DNA of 64,000 nucleotides from Sulfurospirillum diekertiae (GTDB lineage: Bacteria > Campylobacterota > Campylobacteria > Campylobacterales > Sulfurospirillaceae): contig NZ_CP023275.1 in the NCBI RefSeq assembly GCF_002309535.1, positions 868,001 through 932,000 of the forward strand. The letters are read 5' to 3'. Numbering within the stretch: the stretch's first letter is position 1; each line of letters starts with the position of its first letter. Of the stretch, positions 1-17,709 are shown piece by piece. The translations under genes were made by a program, and so were the position numbers. The notes beneath the pieces were generated by a model that worked only from the letters and a program-made list of their open reading frames with translations, made no database searches and was not told the DNA's origin.

Positions 1-381
1 CATTTAGAGCAGTACATCATCAAACCGGTGACACTCAATGGCCTTTTAGAGGCACTTTCACGCTGCCTCAAACGTATTACTCAAACGCATACGATTGTCT
101 ATGAACTTCCTTGTGGCTACTTGTACGATGTTGATCATAAGTTACTGACGTATGAGGGAGAGATCATTCATCTCAATAAAAAAGAGGCGGGATTTTTAGA
201 ATTACTGTTGCATAATAAACAACGCATTGTCTCCTACGATGAGTTACAAGCCCATGTGTGGCAAGACGATGTGATGACCGATAGTGCGCTTCGCTCACTG
301 GTGCGTAATTTACGCAAGAAGTTACCGAAAGATTTTATTACCAATTTATCAGGGGTTGGGTACCGATTTGAGATGTGCTAG
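1..381 (+). CDS. OmpR-family response regulator, C-terminal part (5' end outside window)
   Basis: The frame is open from base 1, so only the end of the receiver and the full output domain are present. The first residues include a Lys-Pro pair (YIIKPVT), the conserved end of beta-5 of a receiver, followed by the last receiver helix. The rest (about residues 30-126) is an OmpR/PhoB winged helix with the typical HLNKKEAGFLELLL start, the recognition-helix region SALRSLVRNLRKKL and the GVGYRF wing. It overlaps the downstream binding-protein gene by 14 nt. It is presumably the partner of the kinase at 2031-3701, since the three genes overlap in one operon. Confidence 0.9.
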   Translation, partial: HLEQYIIKPVTLNGLLEALSRCLKRITQTHTIVYELPCGYLYDVDHKLLTYEGEIIHLNKKEAGFLELLLHNKQRIVSYDELQAHVWQDDVMTDSALRSLVRNLRKKLPKDFITNLSGVGYRFEMC

Positions 382-2038
382 ACTCTTACTTTTAGTGCTT
401 GTGTGTGTGACCTTTGGTAGGGCACAAGAGTGGAAAAATCCTTTTTATTACCGCAGTGATGATACCACTTTGGTACTCATCAATGAACGTGTCAAAGGCT
501 CTCACATCAAAGTCTTTTTACCGACCATGCCTTATTTATATGTCTCAAAACTGGTCAATGGTACGCTGGTTCGCTCCAGTGGTAACCATGAAGGATGGGA
601 GTATATGATGGCAACATCGTATACCAAGATAGACGATCTTACTTATGAATTTTCCTTGCGTAAAGGGGTTCTATTTCAAGATGGAACGCCGTTTAACGCG
701 GATTCAGTGGTTGAAAATTTCACCTATTTTATGAAAGATCCTGTGGTTTATTCGGATATTCATAAGCGACTTAAAAGTGTGAGTAAAGTGGATGATCATA
801 CCATTCGTATTCACCTGTATAAACCCTATGGGTTGCTCTTTAGCGATCTGACTTCTATCAATTTGTACACATCCGCCTACCTCAAACGTTATGGATGGAG
901 TACGAAAGAGGGCTCTACGTGTAACAGCATGCAAGCTCCAGGTCCTTATGGATTGGGTCCGTATATCTTAAAGCAAGGCTACGCAACAGGGCGGTTTCAA
1001 ACGCCTATTTTAGAGCTTCAAGCCAATCCAAACTATTATGAAGCGGGTTTGCCTTACATTGAGAATGTAACCATTTATACAGAACTGACATCTGCCCAAT
1101 CGGTCAGTATGGCGTTGGAAGAAGAGCGTTTGGATATAACACCGATTCCTTTCAATAAAAAAGTAGAGACCGTTCTTTCTAAGTATGCAAGACTCTATAC
1201 GAAACCTTCAACGCACAGTATTTCGATCTATTTTAACCTGCTTAAGCCCAACAGTAAATTGAGAAATCAAAAAATACGTATAGCGCTTAATAAAGCGGTC
1301 AATCAAGCCAATTTGCTTAATTTTGTCTATAAAAAAGAGGGTGAACTCGCACCTACAGAAGCTTCCGTGAATTATCGTTCTGTAAAACTGGCAACGGCAA
1401 ACCTTCAAACATGGGGTGAACATACACTTCATAATCCAGATGAGGAGAAGGAACTTAAAGCGATTTTAAATGGGTTGGAGCTGGATGTCATTACGATGGA
1501 TCGTTTTATGTTTTTATGGCGAGGCATTGAGTATCAGCTCAAAAAATACGGTGTTACGCTTCATTACACCACAACACCCAATGAAAAAGAGATCTATGAG
1601 CAACTTCTCACGAACCGTCAGTCACCTAAAACATGGGATATTTTAACATGGGGTAATGACGATTGGAGCAGTAACAATCCTTGGACAGCGTTCTTTGCGT
1701 ACCGCATCTCCGATAAATGGTCGGCGATTGATAAAGACGATATTATGCAAGAATATATTGAACATTTTTTTGATGTTGAATTTCAAAGTGAGGCTTTTGA
1801 TGAGGTCGTCGCAAAGATTGTCAAACGGGCATATGAAAAAGCGTATATGCTTTTTGTTCCATCTCCAAACATTGTGTTAGCGGTCAATAAAGAAGTACGT
1901 TATGAGCCTTCATCGGTTTTATTGATGCCTCTATGGAAGGCAAAATTGACCAAGTATCACTGGTCGATTAGGGGTAATGCTGCTTATCCTAAAGAGCGTG
2001 AAGCACCCATGTTACCTTTAAGGTTTGATTATGATTAA
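368..2038 (+). CDS. Periplasmic solute-binding protein, SBP_bac_5 (peptide/nickel) family, inside a two-component operon
   Basis: 556 aa from a TTG start at 368, chosen because it gives a clean signal peptide (M-RCARLLLLVLVCVTFGRAQ) and lies after a GGGG-rich stretch; longer in-frame starts run back through the regulator gene. Family hallmarks are YEFSLRKGVLFQDGTPFNA, VDDHTIRIHL, YGLGPYILK and LQANPNYY. No ABC permease or ATPase genes follow. The gene overlaps the regulator upstream by 14 nt and the kinase downstream by 8 nt. By context I infer a ligand-sensing accessory protein for the kinase, as the unrelated TorT is for TorS, rather than a transporter subunit. The ligand is unknown. Confidence 0.85.
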   Translation: MRCARLLLLVLVCVTFGRAQEWKNPFYYRSDDTTLVLINERVKGSHIKVFLPTMPYLYVSKLVNGTLVRSSGNHEGWEYMMATSYTKIDDLTYEFSLRKGVLFQDGTPFNADSVVENFTYFMKDPVVYSDIHKRLKSVSKVDDHTIRIHLYKPYGLLFSDLTSINLYTSAYLKRYGWSTKEGSTCNSMQAPGPYGLGPYILKQGYATGRFQTPILELQANPNYYEAGLPYIENVTIYTELTSAQSVSMALEEERLDITPIPFNKKVETVLSKYARLYTKPSTHSISIYFNLLKPNSKLRNQKIRIALNKAVNQANLLNFVYKKEGELAPTEASVNYRSVKLATANLQTWGEHTLHNPDEEKELKAILNGLELDVITMDRFMFLWRGIEYQLKKYGVTLHYTTTPNEKEIYEQLLTNRQSPKTWDILTWGNDDWSSNNPWTAFFAYRISDKWSAIDKDDIMQEYIEHFFDVEFQSEAFDEVVAKIVKRAYEKAYMLFVPSPNIVLAVNKEVRYEPSSVLLMPLWKAKLTKYHWSIRGNAAYPKEREAPMLPLRFDYD

Positions 2039-3701
2039 GTATCTTTCCATGCGTTATAAATTTTTTCTGATGGCCTCTTTGGGCATTTGTGCGATTGTTA
2101 CGCTCTCTTTTTTAGCGTTTGACATTACTAACAAAGGGGTAGTGAATGTCAACAATGTTTTTGAAGGCTCGAAGCGGGTTCAAACGATTCAGCAGACCTA
2201 CATTTTGCCACTGTTTAAACTCAGGGAACAATCCCTTTCATTGATTATGGCGCCAAATGAAGACTTACGTAAGGATATTCTCAAAAAAATAAATGAGATG
2301 CACACGCAAATGGAAGAGCCCTTTAGTAAACTGCCAGCAACGCTCTATTATCAGTGGAAAAACTATGTCACACTCATCTTAGCCAACCAAGCCTACCTCA
2401 AAGATGATTTTGAAGAGGGTGCATTTATCAATGCCAATACGGTTGAACGTGATCAGTTTTATGCGCTGATGGATTCACTCGAAGTATTACAGCAAAATGA
2501 GCTGACACACTCTTCTGAGACCTATGCCAAAGCCAATAAAGAGGCGATCAATTCGCGTTATTTTATTGCCACTTGGTTGATTATTATCGTGCTTTTGACT
2601 TTTTTAGTGGGCTTTTTTATTGCCAAAAATATTGTCGATTCTATTTTACATGTAAGGCATGGACTAAGAGAATTTTTTGACTACCTCAAATCTCCTTCCA
2701 CCGAAGAAGCCACACGTATTCATATTCCTCTGATGAACAAAGATGAGTTGGGTGACATGGCACGCCAGATCAATCAAAATATTGAGATCATTCAAGCCAA
2801 TTTGGAACAAGACAGCCAACTCATTGAAGATGCTACGAATGTCGTGGAAGATTTAAAATTAGGTAATCTCAACCGCAGACTCGTGGCTTCAGGCAATTCC
2901 GATCAGCTCAACTTACTCAAAGCCGTGATGAATGAGATGCTGGATAATTTGGAGCTTCGCATTCAACAAGAGATCGATGAGCGCACTCGTCAAGAACAGC
3001 TCTTAATTCAGCAAAGTAAACTCGCCGCAATGGGCAATATGATCGGCAATATCGCCCATCAATGGAGGCAGCCTCTTGGTGAGATCAATGCACTTTTGAT
3101 GATCATTCAAGTCAGGCAACACTTTGATGACTTTAATGAAGCCTTTTTAACCGAGAAGATTGAAGAGTGTAACCGTATCACGGCGTACATGTCCAACACG
3201 ATCAGCGACTTTCAAAACTTTTTTAAACCCTCTAAAGATAAAGAGATTTTTGAAATCAATCATGCGTGTGAACGGGCGAGCTCCATCATACAAGCTTCGC
3301 TTCGTTATCACTCCATTGAGTTTTCATTTAATGCCATTGAAAAGATCAAAGTACTTGGCTATCCCAATGAGTTTGCTCAAGCATTGTTAAACATACTCTC
3401 CAATGCCAAAGATGTTTTAACCGACAGGCAGATAGAAAACCCTTTCATTCGCATGAATGTCAAAAATGGGGAACAATACACCCTCATTAAGATCGAAGAC
3501 AATGGCGGTGGCATTTCTGAAGAGTATTTGGAGCGTATTTTTGAGCCTTACTTTACGACCAAACACGCTAAGCAAGGTACGGGAATTGGACTGTATATGA
3601 CCAAGATGATTATTGAAAACAATATGAATGGCATCGTGACCGTTAGTAACACAGAGCATGGTGCACTCTTTACGATCAAAATAAAGCACCATTTAAAATA
3701 A
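2031..3701 (+). CDS. Membrane sensor histidine kinase
   Basis: 556 aa. ATG at 2031 is preferred over the upstream TTG (2025) because AAGG lies 7 nt before it. Two membrane segments (about 10-31 and 182-203) flank a roughly 150-residue helical periplasmic domain; a HAMP linker follows (to about 270), then an H-box of the HWRQP type (His343, GNIAHQWRQPLGE), an N-box (LSNAKD), a G1 box (IEDNGGGI) and a G2 box (GTGIGLYMTK). It carries one copy of the TTACATGTAA core (2645-2656), read as L-H-V. It probably receives the signal of the binding protein encoded just before it and phosphorylates the regulator at 1-381. Confidence 0.9.
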   Translation: MIKYLSMRYKFFLMASLGICAIVTLSFLAFDITNKGVVNVNNVFEGSKRVQTIQQTYILPLFKLREQSLSLIMAPNEDLRKDILKKINEMHTQMEEPFSKLPATLYYQWKNYVTLILANQAYLKDDFEEGAFINANTVERDQFYALMDSLEVLQQNELTHSSETYAKANKEAINSRYFIATWLIIIVLLTFLVGFFIAKNIVDSILHVRHGLREFFDYLKSPSTEEATRIHIPLMNKDELGDMARQINQNIEIIQANLEQDSQLIEDATNVVEDLKLGNLNRRLVASGNSDQLNLLKAVMNEMLDNLELRIQQEIDERTRQEQLLIQQSKLAAMGNMIGNIAHQWRQPLGEINALLMIIQVRQHFDDFNEAFLTEKIEECNRITAYMSNTISDFQNFFKPSKDKEIFEINHACERASSIIQASLRYHSIEFSFNAIEKIKVLGYPNEFAQALLNILSNAKDVLTDRQIENPFIRMNVKNGEQYTLIKIEDNGGGISEEYLERIFEPYFTTKHAKQGTGIGLYMTKMIIENNMNGIVTVSNTEHGALFTIKIKHHLK

Positions 3702-4049
3702 ATTGTATTTTCATAGAGGTTGTACCAAAATAAAAATCTTTATACTTTTTTTATACTTTTCATTTAGTATTTTCACTGTACTATAAAATGTAAAATGGAT
3801 CATTGATGCTTCGATACATTCTAATACGCTATAAAAGAATTAGAAATATGTATTTGGAATGTCGATATTAATCAGGTAAGTCAATGAGTGTGATTTTATT
3901 TATCGTTAATTATTTGTGTTATTAAAAATGTGTATGGAGTAGTCATATACAAGGTTATTTGACTTGTTTTGATAAAAAGCATAGGAGTGAAACAATTGAA
4001 ATTGTATGATCGTATAAGGTGTTTTTACACTTTAAAATCAAGTTGAATC
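3702..4049. other. A+T-rich intergenic region with regulator boxes
   Basis: 348 bp without a convincing gene. It holds a run of TTTATACTTT boxes (3739-3773), a possible -10 (TATAAA, 3782-3787) just after them, and a solitary TTTACACTTT box at 4024-4033 close to the next start codon. If the -10 is used, the downstream kinase mRNA has a leader of about 260 nt. I see no ORF with a ribosome-binding site in it. Confidence 0.6.
3739..3773 (+). promoter_or_regulatory. Three-box direct repeat, putative response-regulator operator
   Basis: Boxes begin at 3739 (TTTATACTTT), 3750 (TTTATACTTT) and 3763 (TTTAGTATTT), so the offsets are 11 and 13 bp. The same pattern with the same offsets occurs at 6844-6877. 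Direct repeats about one helical turn apart are typical of OmpR-family binding. Which of the two regulators in this region binds is not shown. Confidence 0.55.
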
Positions 4050-6092
4050 ATGAATTATTTTAAGCGAAAATATCTATCGACTATCCTCTTTATTCTTGTT
4101 TTTTTCTTTTTAACCTTTGCCTATATTGTTCTTGTTTTTATCAACTATGATGCTAACAAAACGATGATGCAAGAACTCGTTAAGACAAATCAATTGAATA
4201 TTGTCAAAGGGTATAAGCGTCAAATTGATGAATGGCTTTCCGTTAAAAAACGTATTGTCTCTTCTGCCTCGACCTTTCTAGAAAAGTTAGACCCTGAAAA
4301 AAACTACCACGACATTAGACAAATTTTACAAAGTGCCATTACAACAGGGGAATTTCGAAGTGTTTATATTGGTTATGCCAATAATTCTTTTATTACAGGT
4401 ATTAATTGGATAGCGCCATTAAATTATTTTCCTACCGAGAGACCATGGTATAAGGTAGGAAAAGAGCGTCAAAGTATTGCTATTACACTACCTTATATTG
4501 ACTCTGATCTTTTAAAAGAAGTAGTTTCCATTGTTGCTCCTATCTATAATCACAATAATGGAGAGTTAATAGCTGTTCTCTCAAGCGATTTAATTTTAGA
4601 TTCTATTCAAAAAGAGATACTTTCCATAAATCTACCATTTAATGGATTTGCATTCCTAGTCAGTAAAAATGGCAAAATTCTTGTGAGTCCTGATGGATTT
4701 AGCGAACAAAAGTGCAATGGCTGTGAACCTGCAATCTCTGCTATCCTTTCGAATAATGAGATGGTTGGAACGACAACATATATATACAATGGAAAAAAAT
4801 ATTTAGTCTTTTATGAGCCTTTGGAAAATAGTGATTGGATTTTTGCGACTGTATTGAATGAGGAAAGTATCTTTGGGGAACTCAATGAGCAACTCTTCCA
4901 AAATGTCATTATGGCGGTCAGCTTTAGTGTATTTGGTATTTTAGGACTGCTCTTATTTCTCTTTTTATCGCGAAAAATATTTGAGCATAAACGGCTTTTA
5001 GATTCTTTTGCGCATAGCAGTAGTCATGCAATGGCAATTATTGATAAACACAAAAATGTTCTTTTAATCAATGACCCACTGAGAAAATTATTAGTAATCA
5101 ATGAGCCCGTAGAACTGGGTGACGCAATTACCCATTTAAAAGAGATAGCTGGAAATATAGAATTACTTCAAACGCTTATTGAAGCTGTATACGAGGTCAT
5201 GGATTGTACGTTTACTGCAAAAATTATTAAAATACCTAATGATGATACGACGGAATGCCTTTTAGTTCAAATAATGCCTATTATTGAAAAAGGTTCAAAA
5301 ATAGAAGGTTGCATTTTAACGATTAATGATATTACCAATGAATACCGCTTAGAAACGCATGCAAAAGAGCATGAACAGATTATGATTCAGCACAGTAAAA
5401 TGGCTGCTATGGGCGAAATGGTAGGGGCTATTACGCATCAGTGGCGGCAACCATTAGCGGCACTTTTGGTTTTGATGGGAATGTTAAGAGTTCAAGTCAA
5501 AGATAAAATTATCAGTGAAGATAGATTGATTGAAAGTTTTGATAAAGCCGTTGAAATTGTAAAGTTCATGGAACTAACGCTACAAGCATTTAAATCATTT
5601 TATAAAACAGGGCAAGAAAAAGAGTATTTTGACAGCGCCACCGTTGTTGAAGAAGTCGTCAGTATCATGAAACCCATAGCGCGTATTCATAATATTGATC
5701 TTTCATTTATTTATGATTACAAAAAAGATTATCCAATGTTTTCATACTCTAATTATGTGAAACAAATTTTAGTTAATCTCATTTCCAATGCAAAAGATGC
5801 CATTTTAGAAAAAAACAGCACATCAGCTGAGGGGCATATCATCATTACTTTAGATGAAACATCTGAGCGTTATGTCGTTCGAGTGGAAGATGATGGCGTT
5901 GGTATTCAAAAAGGATTTGAAGAAAAACTTTTTAAAGAAATGCAAACAACGAAAGGTCATAAAGGTACAGGACATGGTCTTTATTTGTGTAAATTGTTGA
6001 TTGAAAATAAGTTAAATGGTACGATTAACATCATTTCTTATGCCAATCCTACTGTATTTGAATTGACTTTTCTAAAGGAAATTAATGGATAA
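4050..6092 (+). CDS. Sensor histidine kinase with dCache-type periplasmic domain and PAS domain
   Basis: 680 aa. A membrane segment at about 10-32 and another at about 288-308 enclose a large double-Cache-type sensor domain (typical TERPWYKVGK and LDSIQKEIL stretches). A PAS-like domain (about 320-435) is followed by an HWRQP-type H-box (His463, GAITHQWRQPLAAL), an N-box (LISNAKDAI), a G1 box (EDDGVGI) and a G2 box (GTGHGLYLCK). The stop overlaps the next regulator gene by 8 nt. Being directly upstream of a TorA-like reductase and its cytochrome, it probably controls their expression in response to an extracellular molecule; the ligand is unknown. Confidence 0.9.
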   Translation: MNYFKRKYLSTILFILVFFFLTFAYIVLVFINYDANKTMMQELVKTNQLNIVKGYKRQIDEWLSVKKRIVSSASTFLEKLDPEKNYHDIRQILQSAITTGEFRSVYIGYANNSFITGINWIAPLNYFPTERPWYKVGKERQSIAITLPYIDSDLLKEVVSIVAPIYNHNNGELIAVLSSDLILDSIQKEILSINLPFNGFAFLVSKNGKILVSPDGFSEQKCNGCEPAISAILSNNEMVGTTTYIYNGKKYLVFYEPLENSDWIFATVLNEESIFGELNEQLFQNVIMAVSFSVFGILGLLLFLFLSRKIFEHKRLLDSFAHSSSHAMAIIDKHKNVLLINDPLRKLLVINEPVELGDAITHLKEIAGNIELLQTLIEAVYEVMDCTFTAKIIKIPNDDTTECLLVQIMPIIEKGSKIEGCILTINDITNEYRLETHAKEHEQIMIQHSKMAAMGEMVGAITHQWRQPLAALLVLMGMLRVQVKDKIISEDRLIESFDKAVEIVKFMELTLQAFKSFYKTGQEKEYFDSATVVEEVVSIMKPIARIHNIDLSFIYDYKKDYPMFSYSNYVKQILVNLISNAKDAILEKNSTSAEGHIIITLDETSERYVVRVEDDGVGIQKGFEEKLFKEMQTTKGHKGTGHGLYLCKLLIENKLNGTINIISYANPTVFELTFLKEING

Positions 6093-6795
6093 GAGTGTCT
6101 TAAAGCGGTTTAACGATTTGCGCATTTTGTTAGTTGAAGATGACGACCTTTTGCGAGGTATTGTTTTTGATGCGTTAAGCCTTTATTGCCAAGATGTAAA
6201 ATGTGCAAAAGATGGGGAAGAGGGATTATCGTGTTTTCATAGTGATAATTTTAATGTCATTATTACGGACATTAATTTGCCTAAGATGAGTGGGCTTGCT
6301 ATGGCACGAGAAATTCGCAAAGTCAATTCAGAAATCTCCATTATTATTTTAACGGCGTATGATACTTCTGATAATATATATGCTTCTATCGACATTTGTG
6401 CATGTGCTTTTTTACATAAGCCGTTTGAGTTAGAACAACTTTACAATACATTACTCATGTGTGTTGGAAAAATTGTATCAACCAATCAATGGCTTGATTT
6501 AGCGCGAGGCTTCTCCTATAACATCAAACTTAAAGAGCTTTTTTTTGAGGACAAAGAGATTCATCTTACAAAAAATGAGTCACGATTATTATCTATTTTG
6601 ATTGATCATGTGGGTAAAACTGTTAGTTTTGAAAATATTGAGGGGAATGTTTGGTACGATAAAAGTGCTACACCTGAAACTATTCGAATGCATATCAATA
6701 AACTCCGTTCTAAAACGTATTACGAACTTATTGAAAATATACAAGGATATGGATATAAGCTTCTCCCTAAAGCAAACATTCCTTTAGAAAAATAA
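6085..6795 (+). CDS. OmpR-family response regulator, partner of the preceding kinase
   Basis: 236 aa. Receiver with the acidic pair (VEDDD), phosphoacceptor Asp62 (ITDINLPKMSG), Thr90 and Lys112-Pro113 (HKPFE); the winged helix starts with HLTKNESRLLSILI and ends NIQGYGYKL. AAGGAAA precedes the start, which lies inside the kinase stop region (ATGGATAAG). Likely activator of the cytochrome/molybdoenzyme pair that follows; the three-box repeat at 6844-6877 is a candidate target. Confidence 0.92.
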   Translation: MDKSVLKRFNDLRILLVEDDDLLRGIVFDALSLYCQDVKCAKDGEEGLSCFHSDNFNVIITDINLPKMSGLAMAREIRKVNSEISIIILTAYDTSDNIYASIDICACAFLHKPFELEQLYNTLLMCVGKIVSTNQWLDLARGFSYNIKLKELFFEDKEIHLTKNESRLLSILIDHVGKTVSFENIEGNVWYDKSATPETIRMHINKLRSKTYYELIENIQGYGYKLLPKANIPLEK

Positions 6796-6843
6796 TTCTT
6801 CTTTTTCTAATCACTCAATTCCTTTCAGATCATTTCTCTAATA

Positions 6844-6877
6844 TTTATACTTTCTTTACACTTTTTTTTTACACTTT
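6844..6877 (+). promoter_or_regulatory. Three-box direct repeat in front of the TorA-like operon
   Basis: Boxes start at 6844 (TTTATACTTT), 6855 (TTTACACTTT) and 6868 (TTTACACTTT), offsets 11 and 13 bp, about 30 bp before the cytochrome start codon. The same arrangement is at 3739-3773 and a single TTTACACTTT is at 4024. I read it as an OmpR-type regulator site in the promoter of the reductase operon. No clear -10 element is visible between the boxes and the gene. Confidence 0.55.
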
Positions 6878-6907
6878 TCTTGAAATTCAATTACAAGGAG
6901 ATAGCGT

Positions 6908-7498
6908 ATGAAAAAAGATGTAGGGTTGAAGGCACTACTTTGTTTTAGTGCTTTACTGATCGTTTCTTCCATGAATGCGGCAGATGTTTTCCCCAAAACA
7001 ACACTTGAGTTGACAAGTGATTCTGGAGAAGCACTAGGGAGTATAACGCCAGGAACAAAGCTTACCAAACTTGATGAAAAGAGCGATAAGAGTTTCGTTA
7101 TGGTAAGTGGTTGGAGTGCGTATGGGGAAGAGAGTGTTATCTTTCAGAATATTGGGCAAAGAGTTGTGTATGCACTTTTAAAACCTAATGCTTTTAAAGG
7201 TATTGAAAAAGGTCAAAGTAAAACCGATGACTATGATGCCGAGTGGATACCCAGCCAAATTAAAGGATGGGTCAAAAATTCAGACGTAACCTCTAATCAA
7301 GAAGATGTTTGGAAAGAAGGTGCCAAATTATTTGGTGAGAGATGTGGTTCTTGCCACCAAGCGCACCCATCCGATGAATTTACCGTCAATCAATGGCCTA
7401 ATATTATCAAAGCAATGAAAGATCGAGCGGGACTTTTACCAGAGCAACAATGGCAATTAACGAAATATATGCAAGCTCATGCAAAAGATGCAAAGTAA
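6908..7498 (+). CDS. Monoheme cytochrome c, electron donor of the TorA-like reductase
   Basis: 196 aa. Signal peptide (about 1-24, cut after SSMNA), an N-terminal domain without heme and a C-terminal heme domain with CGSCH at 146-150 and a Met at about 170 as possible distal ligand. This arrangement and the position directly before a TorA homologue match the Campylobacter jejuni Cj0265c-Cj0264c pair, where a single-heme protein replaces the pentaheme TorC. AAGGAG lies 5 nt before the ATG. It should pass electrons from the quinol or cytochrome pool to the periplasmic molybdoenzyme. Confidence 0.88.
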   Translation: MKKDVGLKALLCFSALLIVSSMNAADVFPKTTLELTSDSGEALGSITPGTKLTKLDEKSDKSFVMVSGWSAYGEESVIFQNIGQRVVYALLKPNAFKGIEKGQSKTDDYDAEWIPSQIKGWVKNSDVTSNQEDVWKEGAKLFGERCGSCHQAHPSDEFTVNQWPNIIKAMKDRAGLLPEQQWQLTKYMQAHAKDAK

Positions 7499-7508
7499 GG
7501 AGATGAAA

Positions 7509-9977
7509 ATGAAAAATAATTCTAGAAGAGATTTTCTTAAAACAAGTCTTATGGGTAGTGCAGCTGTTGTTGGCAGTGTCAAGAGTTTAAATGCTATTGA
7601 TATCGCTAGTGGACCTATTTTAAATGAGTCACAAAAATTTAGTGCAACACACTTTGGTGCTTTTAAAGCCTATATAAAAGGTGGTCAGTTTACAGGCGTG
7701 AGTGATTTCGTGGATGATGCTTCCCCTACACCTATGTTACAAGCACTCCCTTCACGTACGTATGCTCCAACGCGCGTGAAGTATCCTTATGTGCGAGAAG
7801 GTTTCCTCAAAAAAGGGCATCAAAGTGATACTTCTAAAAGAGGCAGTGAAAAATTTGTACGTGTTTCTTGGGATGTAGCGTTAGATCTTGTGGCTAAAGA
7901 AGTGATGCGTGTTCAAAGTACCTATGGTTATAAAAGTATTTATGCTGGAAGTTATGGTTGGTTTTGTGTTGGAAAACTCAATAATCCACAACGTCTTATG
8001 AACCGTATGATGAAAATTGCAGGTGGATATGTGGGGAGAGCGGGTGATTATTCTACGGGTGCAGCACAAGTCATCATGCCTCATGTTTTGGGAACCAATG
8101 AAGTATATGAGCAACAAACATCATGGGATATGGTTCTTAAACATGCTAAAAATGTTGTTTTTTGGGGTGCTGATCCTATGACAACGAACCAAATTGCATG
8201 GGAAATACCAGCGCATGAATCCTACAGTTATATGAGTGAATTAAAAAAACTCAGTGATGCCAATAAAATTAATGTCATGTCTGTTGATCCAGTTGCAAAT
8301 GATACCCAGCGTTATTTTGAGGGCGAACATATTCGTGTTAGACCCAATACAGATGTTGCTATGATGTTGGGAATGGCGTATCATCTTTATAGTAATAAAT
8401 TATACGATCATGAATTTATCAAAAAATACACGGTTGGATTTAAACAATTTGAGCAGTACCTTATTGGCGAAAAAGACAATACGCCAAAAACCCCTGAATG
8501 GGCAGAGCGAATTTGTGGTGTTTCAGCCAATACAATCAAAAAATTTGCTGAAAAACTTATGAAAGAGCGTTCTTTATTGATGGCCGGTTGGGCAACGCAA
8601 AGAGCCGATCATGGTGAACAATTCCATTGGATGATGGTGACACTTTGTGCAATGTTAGGACAAATAGGACTTCCTGGTGGAGGTTTTGGCTTTAGTTACC
8701 ATTATGCAGGTGGTGGAACACCAACAGCGGATGCTCCTGGGCTTACGGGTATTTCTACTAATATTGTTAGTGATAAAGAAGGACCTTGGACCAAGTATAA
8801 ACCCTTTAATATCCCTGCAGCGAAAGCGTTTGATATGATTGCTAATCCTGGTAAAAAAATTGCATTTAATGGCAAAGAGATTGTTTATCCTAATATTAAA
8901 ATGGTTTATTGGGCGGGTGGAAATCCCTTCCATCATCATCAAGATCGAAACGCTATGCTTAAAGCATGGAAAAGATTAGAAACGGTCATTGTTCATGAGC
9001 CTTTTTGGACATCAACAGCACGTATGGCAGACATCATTCTACCAGCAACGACTGAAATAGAGCGTAACGATATTGAGAGAATTGGAGATTATTCATCAAC
9101 GCATTTCCTAGCACTTCAACAAGGTATTGAGCCAGTAGGCGAATCAAAAAATGACTTTGAAATTTGTCGTGAAATCTGTAAACGATGGGGTTATGAAAAA
9201 GAATTTACAGAAGATAAAACACCCATGCAGTGGTTAGAGCAATTTTATAATGAAGCGCTTTCCCAAGGAGTTGAAAAAAATATTACTATTCCAAAATTTG
9301 AAGAATTTTGGAAGCAAGGCTATACAAAATTTAAAACGCCTCAATCGGCAAAAGAGTTTGTTAGACATGCTGATTTTAGGGAAAATCCTATGTTAAATCC
9401 ATTAGGAACGCCTTCTGGAAAAATAGAGATATTTTCAAAAATGGTTGATAGTTTTAAATATGATGATTGTAAAGGTCATCCTATGTGGTTTGAGCCAATT
9501 GAATGGTTAGGAAGTCATAAAGCTAAAAAAACATCATTACACTTACTTTCTCCTCATCCAAAGTATCGATTACATTCTCAACTAAGCAATACATGGTTGA
9601 GAGATCTTTACGAAGTGAGTGGAAGAGAACCTATTTGGATTAACCCTGAGGATGCTAAAAAAAGAGGTATCAAAAGTGGTGACGTTGTTAAAGTCTTTAA
9701 TGAAAGAGGCACAACCCTTGCAGGTGCTATTGTAACTCAAGCTGTATCAGAAGGTGTCCTTCGAATGTGTGAAGGCGGATGGTATGACCCAATGGAGCCT
9801 GGTAAAATTGGAACGATGTGTAAGCATGGTGATGTCAATCAATTAACGATTGACAAAGGAACATCTAGCCTTGCCCAAGGTAATATTGCTAATACTGCCT
9901 TGGCTGAGATCGAAAAATACACAGGTGAAATTCCAGCTGTCACTATTTTTGATGAACCAAAAATTGCAAGAAAATAG
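7509..9977 (+). CDS. torA: TorA/DorA-type molybdopterin S- or N-oxide reductase
   Basis: 822 aa from ATG 7509, chosen because TAAGGAG ends 6 nt upstream; earlier in-frame ATGs lie in the cytochrome gene. A Tat signal (SRRDFLK, then VVGSVKSLNA) sends the folded enzyme to the periplasm. The Mo-ligand serine is in GDYSTGAAQVI (Ser182); the Tyr-Gly-Trp of DMSO reductase is present (149-151, GSYGW). There is no N-terminal FeS cysteine motif, as in the DMSO/TMAO/BSO reductase class. Substrate could be TMAO, DMSO or another S/N-oxide; the sequence alone does not decide. Paired with the cytochrome at 6908. Confidence 0.9.
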   Translation: MKNNSRRDFLKTSLMGSAAVVGSVKSLNAIDIASGPILNESQKFSATHFGAFKAYIKGGQFTGVSDFVDDASPTPMLQALPSRTYAPTRVKYPYVREGFLKKGHQSDTSKRGSEKFVRVSWDVALDLVAKEVMRVQSTYGYKSIYAGSYGWFCVGKLNNPQRLMNRMMKIAGGYVGRAGDYSTGAAQVIMPHVLGTNEVYEQQTSWDMVLKHAKNVVFWGADPMTTNQIAWEIPAHESYSYMSELKKLSDANKINVMSVDPVANDTQRYFEGEHIRVRPNTDVAMMLGMAYHLYSNKLYDHEFIKKYTVGFKQFEQYLIGEKDNTPKTPEWAERICGVSANTIKKFAEKLMKERSLLMAGWATQRADHGEQFHWMMVTLCAMLGQIGLPGGGFGFSYHYAGGGTPTADAPGLTGISTNIVSDKEGPWTKYKPFNIPAAKAFDMIANPGKKIAFNGKEIVYPNIKMVYWAGGNPFHHHQDRNAMLKAWKRLETVIVHEPFWTSTARMADIILPATTEIERNDIERIGDYSSTHFLALQQGIEPVGESKNDFEICREICKRWGYEKEFTEDKTPMQWLEQFYNEALSQGVEKNITIPKFEEFWKQGYTKFKTPQSAKEFVRHADFRENPMLNPLGTPSGKIEIFSKMVDSFKYDDCKGHPMWFEPIEWLGSHKAKKTSLHLLSPHPKYRLHSQLSNTWLRDLYEVSGREPIWINPEDAKKRGIKSGDVVKVFNERGTTLAGAIVTQAVSEGVLRMCEGGWYDPMEPGKIGTMCKHGDVNQLTIDKGTSSLAQGNIANTALAEIEKYTGEIPAVTIFDEPKIARK

Positions 9978-9987
9978 TTTCTATACT

Positions 9988-10016
9988 AAGTAGCCTTTTA
10001 TAAGGCTACTTCTTCT
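9988..10016 (+). terminator. Rho-independent terminator after the TorA-like gene
   Basis: Perfect 8-bp stem AAGTAGCC / GGCTACTT (9988-9995 and 10004-10011) with an 8-nt loop and a T-rich tail, 11 nt after the stop codon. Confidence 0.8.
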
Positions 10017-10129
10017 TGAGATAAATTTATTCTCAAAAAAATCGCAAAAATTATTGATTTTATTTCCTTAACATTTTTTTGCCATTTTTTTTTAATATCA
10101 TTCATTTCAAAATTATTAAGGAGTATCAA

Positions 10130-17523: not shown

Positions 17524-17709
17524 AGGACCCTTTTATAGAACCTTTTTCACCTTTTAGGAACGGTAAAAAAAGTATAAATTTTTTAAAAGAATAGATTATA
17601 CCAAATGAAATAACTTTTTTGTTGTTGAAAGAGTATACAGGCTAAAATTATGCTACGATTTGACATCTTAGAAAGAATAAATTTTATTTAAAATTATGCA
17701 AAGGTTTCC

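Follow-up and report, generated by a model that had tools for sequence, protein, structure and literature searches.

Among the closest described systems, PhoB binds head-to-tail to two 11-nt direct-repeat units and makes contact with the sigma subunit (PMC4415409). TorR of Salmonella recognizes a tor box, CTGTTCATAT, and four numbered boxes are described at torCAD (PMC9239176). The genus Sulfurospirillum itself has PceP (RR2), a regulator of the OmpR family with repeated CTATW-N17-CTATW sites before its own operon and before a terminal reductase operon; these sites overlap the -35 box at most promoters, and at its own promoter the site lies 85 bp upstream of the start (PMC7755780). RacR of Campylobacter jejuni, also of the OmpR type, acts with alternative electron acceptors and binds a defined consensus (PMC4456614). 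For the tor and nrf genes of Campylobacterota, no published operator motif was found in the literature that we searched. Here we propose such a motif with a fixed geometry, name its regulator and predict which genomes bear the regulon.

The window, a stretch of 64,000 nucleotides from a single-contig genome of 2.81 Mb (G000:C1:868001-932000), has a sensor kinase, a response regulator and a reductase pair encoded one after the other:

4050 to 6092, plus strand: sensor histidine kinase with a dCache sensor domain (Pfam dCache_1, HATPase_c)
6085 to 6795, plus strand: response regulator of the OmpR/PhoB family (Response_reg and Trans_reg_C), predicted binder of operators A and B
6908 to 7498, plus strand: torC-like c-type cytochrome (TIGR02162, positions 209-382 of 387, below the curated cut-off)
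7509 to 9977, plus strand: torA-type molybdopterin N/S-oxide reductase (NF011682 and TIGR00509, above the cut-offs)

The sensor domain of the kinase resembles the dCache ligand domains of chemoreceptors in the PDB (best 6iop), and no receiver domain was found in this kinase with Pfam. Its gene overlaps that of the regulator by 8 bp. The regulator combines a receiver domain (PF00072, 3.1e-22) with a C-terminal winged helix (PF00486, 2.2e-13), which places it in the OmpR/PhoB family, and the Asp, Thr and Lys positions of its receiver align with those of its relatives. The cytochrome resembles TorC only in the latter's C-terminal part. The reductase falls within the TorA/BisC family by its scores with NF011682 (1029.8 bits, cut-off 909) and TIGR00509 (1113, cut-off 1018); with TIGR02164 it reaches 985.7, below 1465, so that its substrate may be TMAO, DMSO or another compound. 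From the gene neighbourhood we infer that the signal of the kinase is TMAO, DMSO or a related compound.

Two operators, A and B, each contain a tandem of TTTAYACTTT boxes, 11 bp apart and 21 bp in all:

3739 to 3748, plus strand: operator A, box 1, exact TTTATACTTT
3750 to 3759, plus strand: operator A, box 2, exact TTTATACTTT, 11 bp downstream of box 1
6844 to 6853, plus strand: operator B, box 1, exact TTTATACTTT
6855 to 6864, plus strand: operator B, box 2, exact TTTACACTTT

Operator A follows the stop (3701) of another kinase gene and lies ahead of the kinase and regulator genes, and operator B lies ahead of the genes for the cytochrome and the reductase. The first-pass annotation had pointed out these shared boxes and their equal 11-bp offset, and both are borne out exactly. 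The whole genome was searched with TTTAYACTTT-N-TTTAYACTTT, the same pattern reversed being the control. Many unrelated matches, which would have spoken against the motif, were not seen: the tandem is exact only at A and B, 3.1 kb apart, and none with one or two mismatches occurs in the whole genome. The 13 others among the matches listed all have three mismatches, a number at chance level (7 for the reversed control), and one of them is the overlapping 6855 register of operator B. Since the reversed control gives only 3 exact matches across 399 genomes of the order, two exact ones 3.1 kb apart are far beyond chance. When the region upstream of torC was dinucleotide-shuffled 500 times, no shuffle equalled the best tandem there. 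The operator is genuinely duplicated, and it is specific.

Outside the family, the 399 genomes contain 7 exact tandems, which are mostly noise, the reversed control giving 3. Exact TTTATACTTT-TTTACACTTT tandems in G174 (L105/L134, 5146) and G233 (L106/L135, 5616) lie 50-111 bp before a gene for a small secreted protein, beside another two-component system, with TATAAA or TATTAA at +5. In G062, from an unrelated family, three tandem boxes with single mismatches lie near the end of a kinase gene (L093, 3969-4000), and single-mismatch boxes are found again 3.7 kb away (7702-7722).

A third TTTAYACTTT box, at +24, had been proposed for both operators. At B the sequence from 6868 is indeed an exact TTTACACTTT; at A the sequence from 3763 is TTTAGTATTT, with mismatches at 3 of the 10 positions, so A and B do not have three boxes in common. 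Each of these supposed boxes contains a hexamer at the same offset:

3765 to 3770, plus strand: predicted -10 hexamer of promoter A, TAGTAT, within the supposed third box at 3763-3772 (TTTAGTATTT)
6870 to 6875, plus strand: predicted -10 hexamer of promoter B, TACACT, within the supposed third box at 6868-6877, with the offset seen in A and in relatives

In an alignment of 18 distinct related operators, some of which share descent and are thus not independent, 17 have TANNNT at a distance of exactly 5 nt downstream of box 2; no other offset between 0 and 21 yields it in more than 4 of the 18, and about 7% is expected from base composition. The sites were picked by their boxes, the 11-bp spacing, present in all 18, was required by the register search, and the hexamer played no part. 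Its fixed place, +26 from box 1, makes the element common to A and B most likely a -10 hexamer. The predicted operator is two boxes in the -35 region plus this -10, the look-alike of a third box at B arising because TACACT happens to be framed by Ts. Given the -10 assignment, the two boxes cover about -38 to -18. When the search pattern was extended by the -10, still only two matches in the genome had 0-1 mismatches and one had two, those with three being at control level. No further members of the regulon were found in the genome, its three-mismatch tandem matches having no -10 at the right offset.

A single box further downstream had also been put forward as a site of the same kind:

4024 to 4033, plus strand: isolated box, exact TTTACACTTT, lacking both a partner at 11 bp and a -10 at +5

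The sequence is there as described, and it is found in the close relatives G015 and G013. As a lone operator it was rejected, because it is unpaired, has no -10 in place and is missing from G016, so that deep conservation is lacking; it is probably not an operator and is compatible with chance. Another lone exact 10-mer lies at 17569.

The distribution of the boxes among genomes follows that of the regulator. A regulator at least 57% identical to the one at 6085 is encoded in 6 of 44 genomes of the family (G000, G015, G013, G016, G008 and G030), and the exact tandem box occurs in these same six and is absent from the other 38. Taken as a random draw, this coincidence would arise once in about 7 million, a figure that relatedness makes too small. 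G150, assigned to the same species as the window, has no such regulator, no torA and no boxes, and the block that it lacks can be delimited by blastn:

3694 to 10070, no strand assigned: cassette of (lost porin)-kinase-regulator-torC-torA, holding A and B; absent as a block in G150 and three further Sulfurospirillum genomes

The flanks, window positions 1-3693 and those from 10071 on, adjoin each other in G150, G019, G008 and G004 with 41-143 bp in between (blastn). In G150 they match at 98% and 94%, respectively, and are joined with 143 bp between them, which argues that the cassette was gained or lost as a block. No relatives were found in viral contigs.

Across the order, regulators that share 36-57% identity with the one at 6085 were located and their loci read. 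The 16 regulators of this type that stand beside torCA or nrfHA form one clade (support 95/90), apart from 30 paralogues. At 15 of these 16 reductase-linked loci, in three families of the order, boxes are found before torC/torA, nrfH, porin or kinase genes. At the reductase-linked locus L128 the best candidate has 5 mismatches (shuffle p 0.096) and is not convincing, and the boxes at L087 and L088 are matched only if 4 mismatches are allowed. The box is lacking at more distant torA genes (43-65% identical) that stand beside other regulators. The earlier idea that one OmpR-type regulator governs its own operon and torA gains from the co-occurrence in 44 genomes, from the single clade and from the different box that goes with relatives of the other local regulator; it loses its three-box form and the operator at 4024. 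On this comparison, the regulator at 6085 is probably in charge of torCA as well as of its own operon.

We consider it most likely that A and B are two operators of one autoregulated two-component system, in which the kinase at 4050 would act on the regulator at 6085 and the latter would activate both promoters. The membrane kinase, with its dCache sensor, would phosphorylate the regulator, which would bind as a head-to-tail dimer to the two boxes spaced by 11 bp. The boxes would stand in for the -35 element, 5 nt upstream of the -10, and the bound regulator would activate RNA polymerase. Promoter B would then turn on torCA and promoter A would supply more of the regulator's own operon; in relatives, promoter A would also make the porin, and a sister system would drive nrfHA. 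PceP and TorR are precedents for one OmpR-type regulator over the operon of a terminal reductase as well as its own, autoregulation of torR having reportedly been described by Ansaldi in 2000 (cited in PMC10662104). Genome comparison contributes to this scheme the sequences of the boxes, their specificity and geometry, their joint occurrence with the regulator, and the loss of the porin.

The same binding could also mean repression, with the regulator at 6085 blocking the -35 region until the signal releases it. The boxes do overlap that region, with 5 nt between them and the -10, and a protein bound at such a position can keep polymerase out. However, the sites of PceP also overlap the -35 box and its authors argue for activation (PMC7755780), and TorR of Salmonella activates torCAD (PMC9239176). 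Moreover, sigma-70 promoters of Campylobacter have no conserved -35 (PMC4456614), so an activator in that place fits. We therefore regard repression as unlikely and retain activation by the regulator at 6085.

A periodic signal reportedly takes the place of the -35 box in RpoD promoters of C. jejuni, as Petersen et al. are said to have found in 2003 (cited in PMC4456614), and the repeats might be a general T-tract signal of this sort in Campylobacterota, with no dedicated regulator. Such a signal would account for the T-rich frame, the 11-bp period and a -10 at a fixed place. Yet it is the ATAC core that is kept and not the T frame alone: box 1 has its A, T and A unchanged at all 18 distinct sites and its C at 17, and its columns TATACTT hardly vary from family to family. 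A general signal would be expected at many promoters per genome, whereas here there are only two, and no exact copies occur in the 38 genomes of the family that lack a close regulator. A general promoter signal is thus very improbable.

The other local regulator, RRup, an OmpR-type protein whose gene ends at 381 and is followed by genes for a solute-binding protein at 413 and a kinase at 2031, is scarcely credible as the binder of A and B: it is of the right type and lies immediately upstream, but it is present in G150 (100% over the part compared) and in other operator-free genomes and so does not track the boxes, it is absent from the G016 locus, where the operators are present, and its relatives adjoin other torCA genes bearing tandem TTTYGCCATTTT or TTTCCAATTTT boxes.

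Other Sulfurospirillum genomes carry a sister tor cassette (L147, L148, L149, L150 and L152) of regulator, solute-binding protein, kinase, torC and torA, with a porin too in L147, L149 and L150. Its boxes are T-framed and of a GCCA type, mostly tandem TTTYGCCATTTT, and stand before the regulator gene and before torC. The GCCA word is also found at torCA genes adjoining RRup relatives. At L146 (6644, genome G025) torA is 65% identical to that of the window, the boxes are tandem TTTCCAATTT and regulators of the RRup/HKup type adjoin, so that a conserved enzyme here goes with another regulator and another box. A fixed -10 spacing is not general in the sister GCCA-type systems, in which the boxes are farther from the likely -10. 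An exception is the promoter of the cytochrome c/bc1 operon in the window (10064-10097, the operon running from 10130 onward), which reads CTTAACATTT-T-TTTGCCATTT-TTTTT-TAATAT and has the same layout of two boxes, 5 nt and TANNNT with a GCCA core. RRup may control this operon.

The surroundings of operator A differ among relatives. In G013 and G016 a porin gene of the OprD family (PF03573) begins about 60 bp after it and is followed by kinase and regulator, and a contig of G007 has the order porin-kinase-regulator-torC-torA as well:

3794 to 3936, plus strand, in the window: residual 3' end of an OprD-type porin gene (scoring 90 in a local alignment with the G013 gene; 200 shuffles reach at most 49)
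5069 to 6217 in L081 and 5181 to 6335 in L082: intact OprD-type porin genes of relatives (PF03573)

In the window and in G015 the body of the porin gene is gone and about 140 nt of its 3' end are left right after promoter A. The similarity is at the DNA level only, tblastn having given no convincing protein match for the remnant. Together with the intact porin in relatives, the remnant indicates that operator A is in origin the predicted promoter of a porin-sensor-regulator operon that has lost its porin in the window, and this loss would explain the leader of about 270 nt before the kinase gene.

Degenerate boxes of the same geometry stand before torCA at L124, L125, L126, L127, L129/L142, L087 and L088, and before nrfHA at L083, L076 and L085; at L124 they also precede the kinase gene. 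Degenerate copies with torCA, nrfHA or a kinase gene downstream occur in two other families of the order. The NrfH and NrfA calls rest on TIGR03153 (above cut-off) and PF02335. An nrfH-nrfA-kinase-regulator operon with an exact TTTATACTTT tandem is found at L083 (3487-8491, genome G008) and L076 (2649-7654), and in G008 it lies at 2.08 Mb. By eye, the five NrfA haem motifs at these loci are all CxxCH, with no CxxCK. With this operon, G008 may have a second nrfHA in addition to the known nrfHAIJ.

It is possible, and we suggest it tentatively, that the regulator clade and its two-box ATAC operator form a portable control module, attached to torCA, nrfHA or a porin across Campylobacterales, with whole cassettes gained or lost within a species; sister tor systems, which use the same 11-bp T-framed tandem but a GCCA or CCAA core, would leave neighbouring cassettes insulated from one another. 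Since the enzyme under control changes from locus to locus but operator and regulator stay together, the set of loci offers a clean way to test how substrate control is extended to new respiratory enzymes.

In summary, the first-pass annotation is mostly right. It is corrected to two boxes plus a -10, with no operator at 4024, and extended by the porin operon and the nrfHA relatives. The resemblance to RacR is that of an OmpR-type regulator tied to electron acceptors in Campylobacterota; the RacR site at ggt, however, lies some 80 bp ahead of the start, and its known targets are in fumarate and glutamate metabolism. As in E. coli and Salmonella, where TorR is reportedly autoregulated, an OmpR-type regulator would control a TorA/TorC operon through repeated 10-bp boxes, but the tor boxes CTGTTCATAT are not found here and two TTTAYACTTT boxes lie directly before the -10. 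The regulator at 6085 scores 69.5 bits with the TorR equivalog NF008034 (cut-off 275). TorS is a hybrid kinase, unlike the dCache kinase at 4050, which scores 53.9 bits with TIGR02956 against a cut-off of 676.5, in the kinase part only, and no TorT was recognised beside it. PceP is likewise an OmpR-family regulator of the same genus with sites before two operons, its own and that of a terminal reductase, but its enzyme and motif are others: the boxes of A and B contain no CTATW and stand 5 nt from the -10. The predicted site is like the pho box of PhoB in its two 11-nt direct repeats where the -35 would be and in its OmpR/PhoB-family regulator; box sequence and regulon differ, and the protein at 6085 is far below the PhoB cut-offs. 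The system most likely belongs to this known type, represented by TorR, PhoB and PceP.
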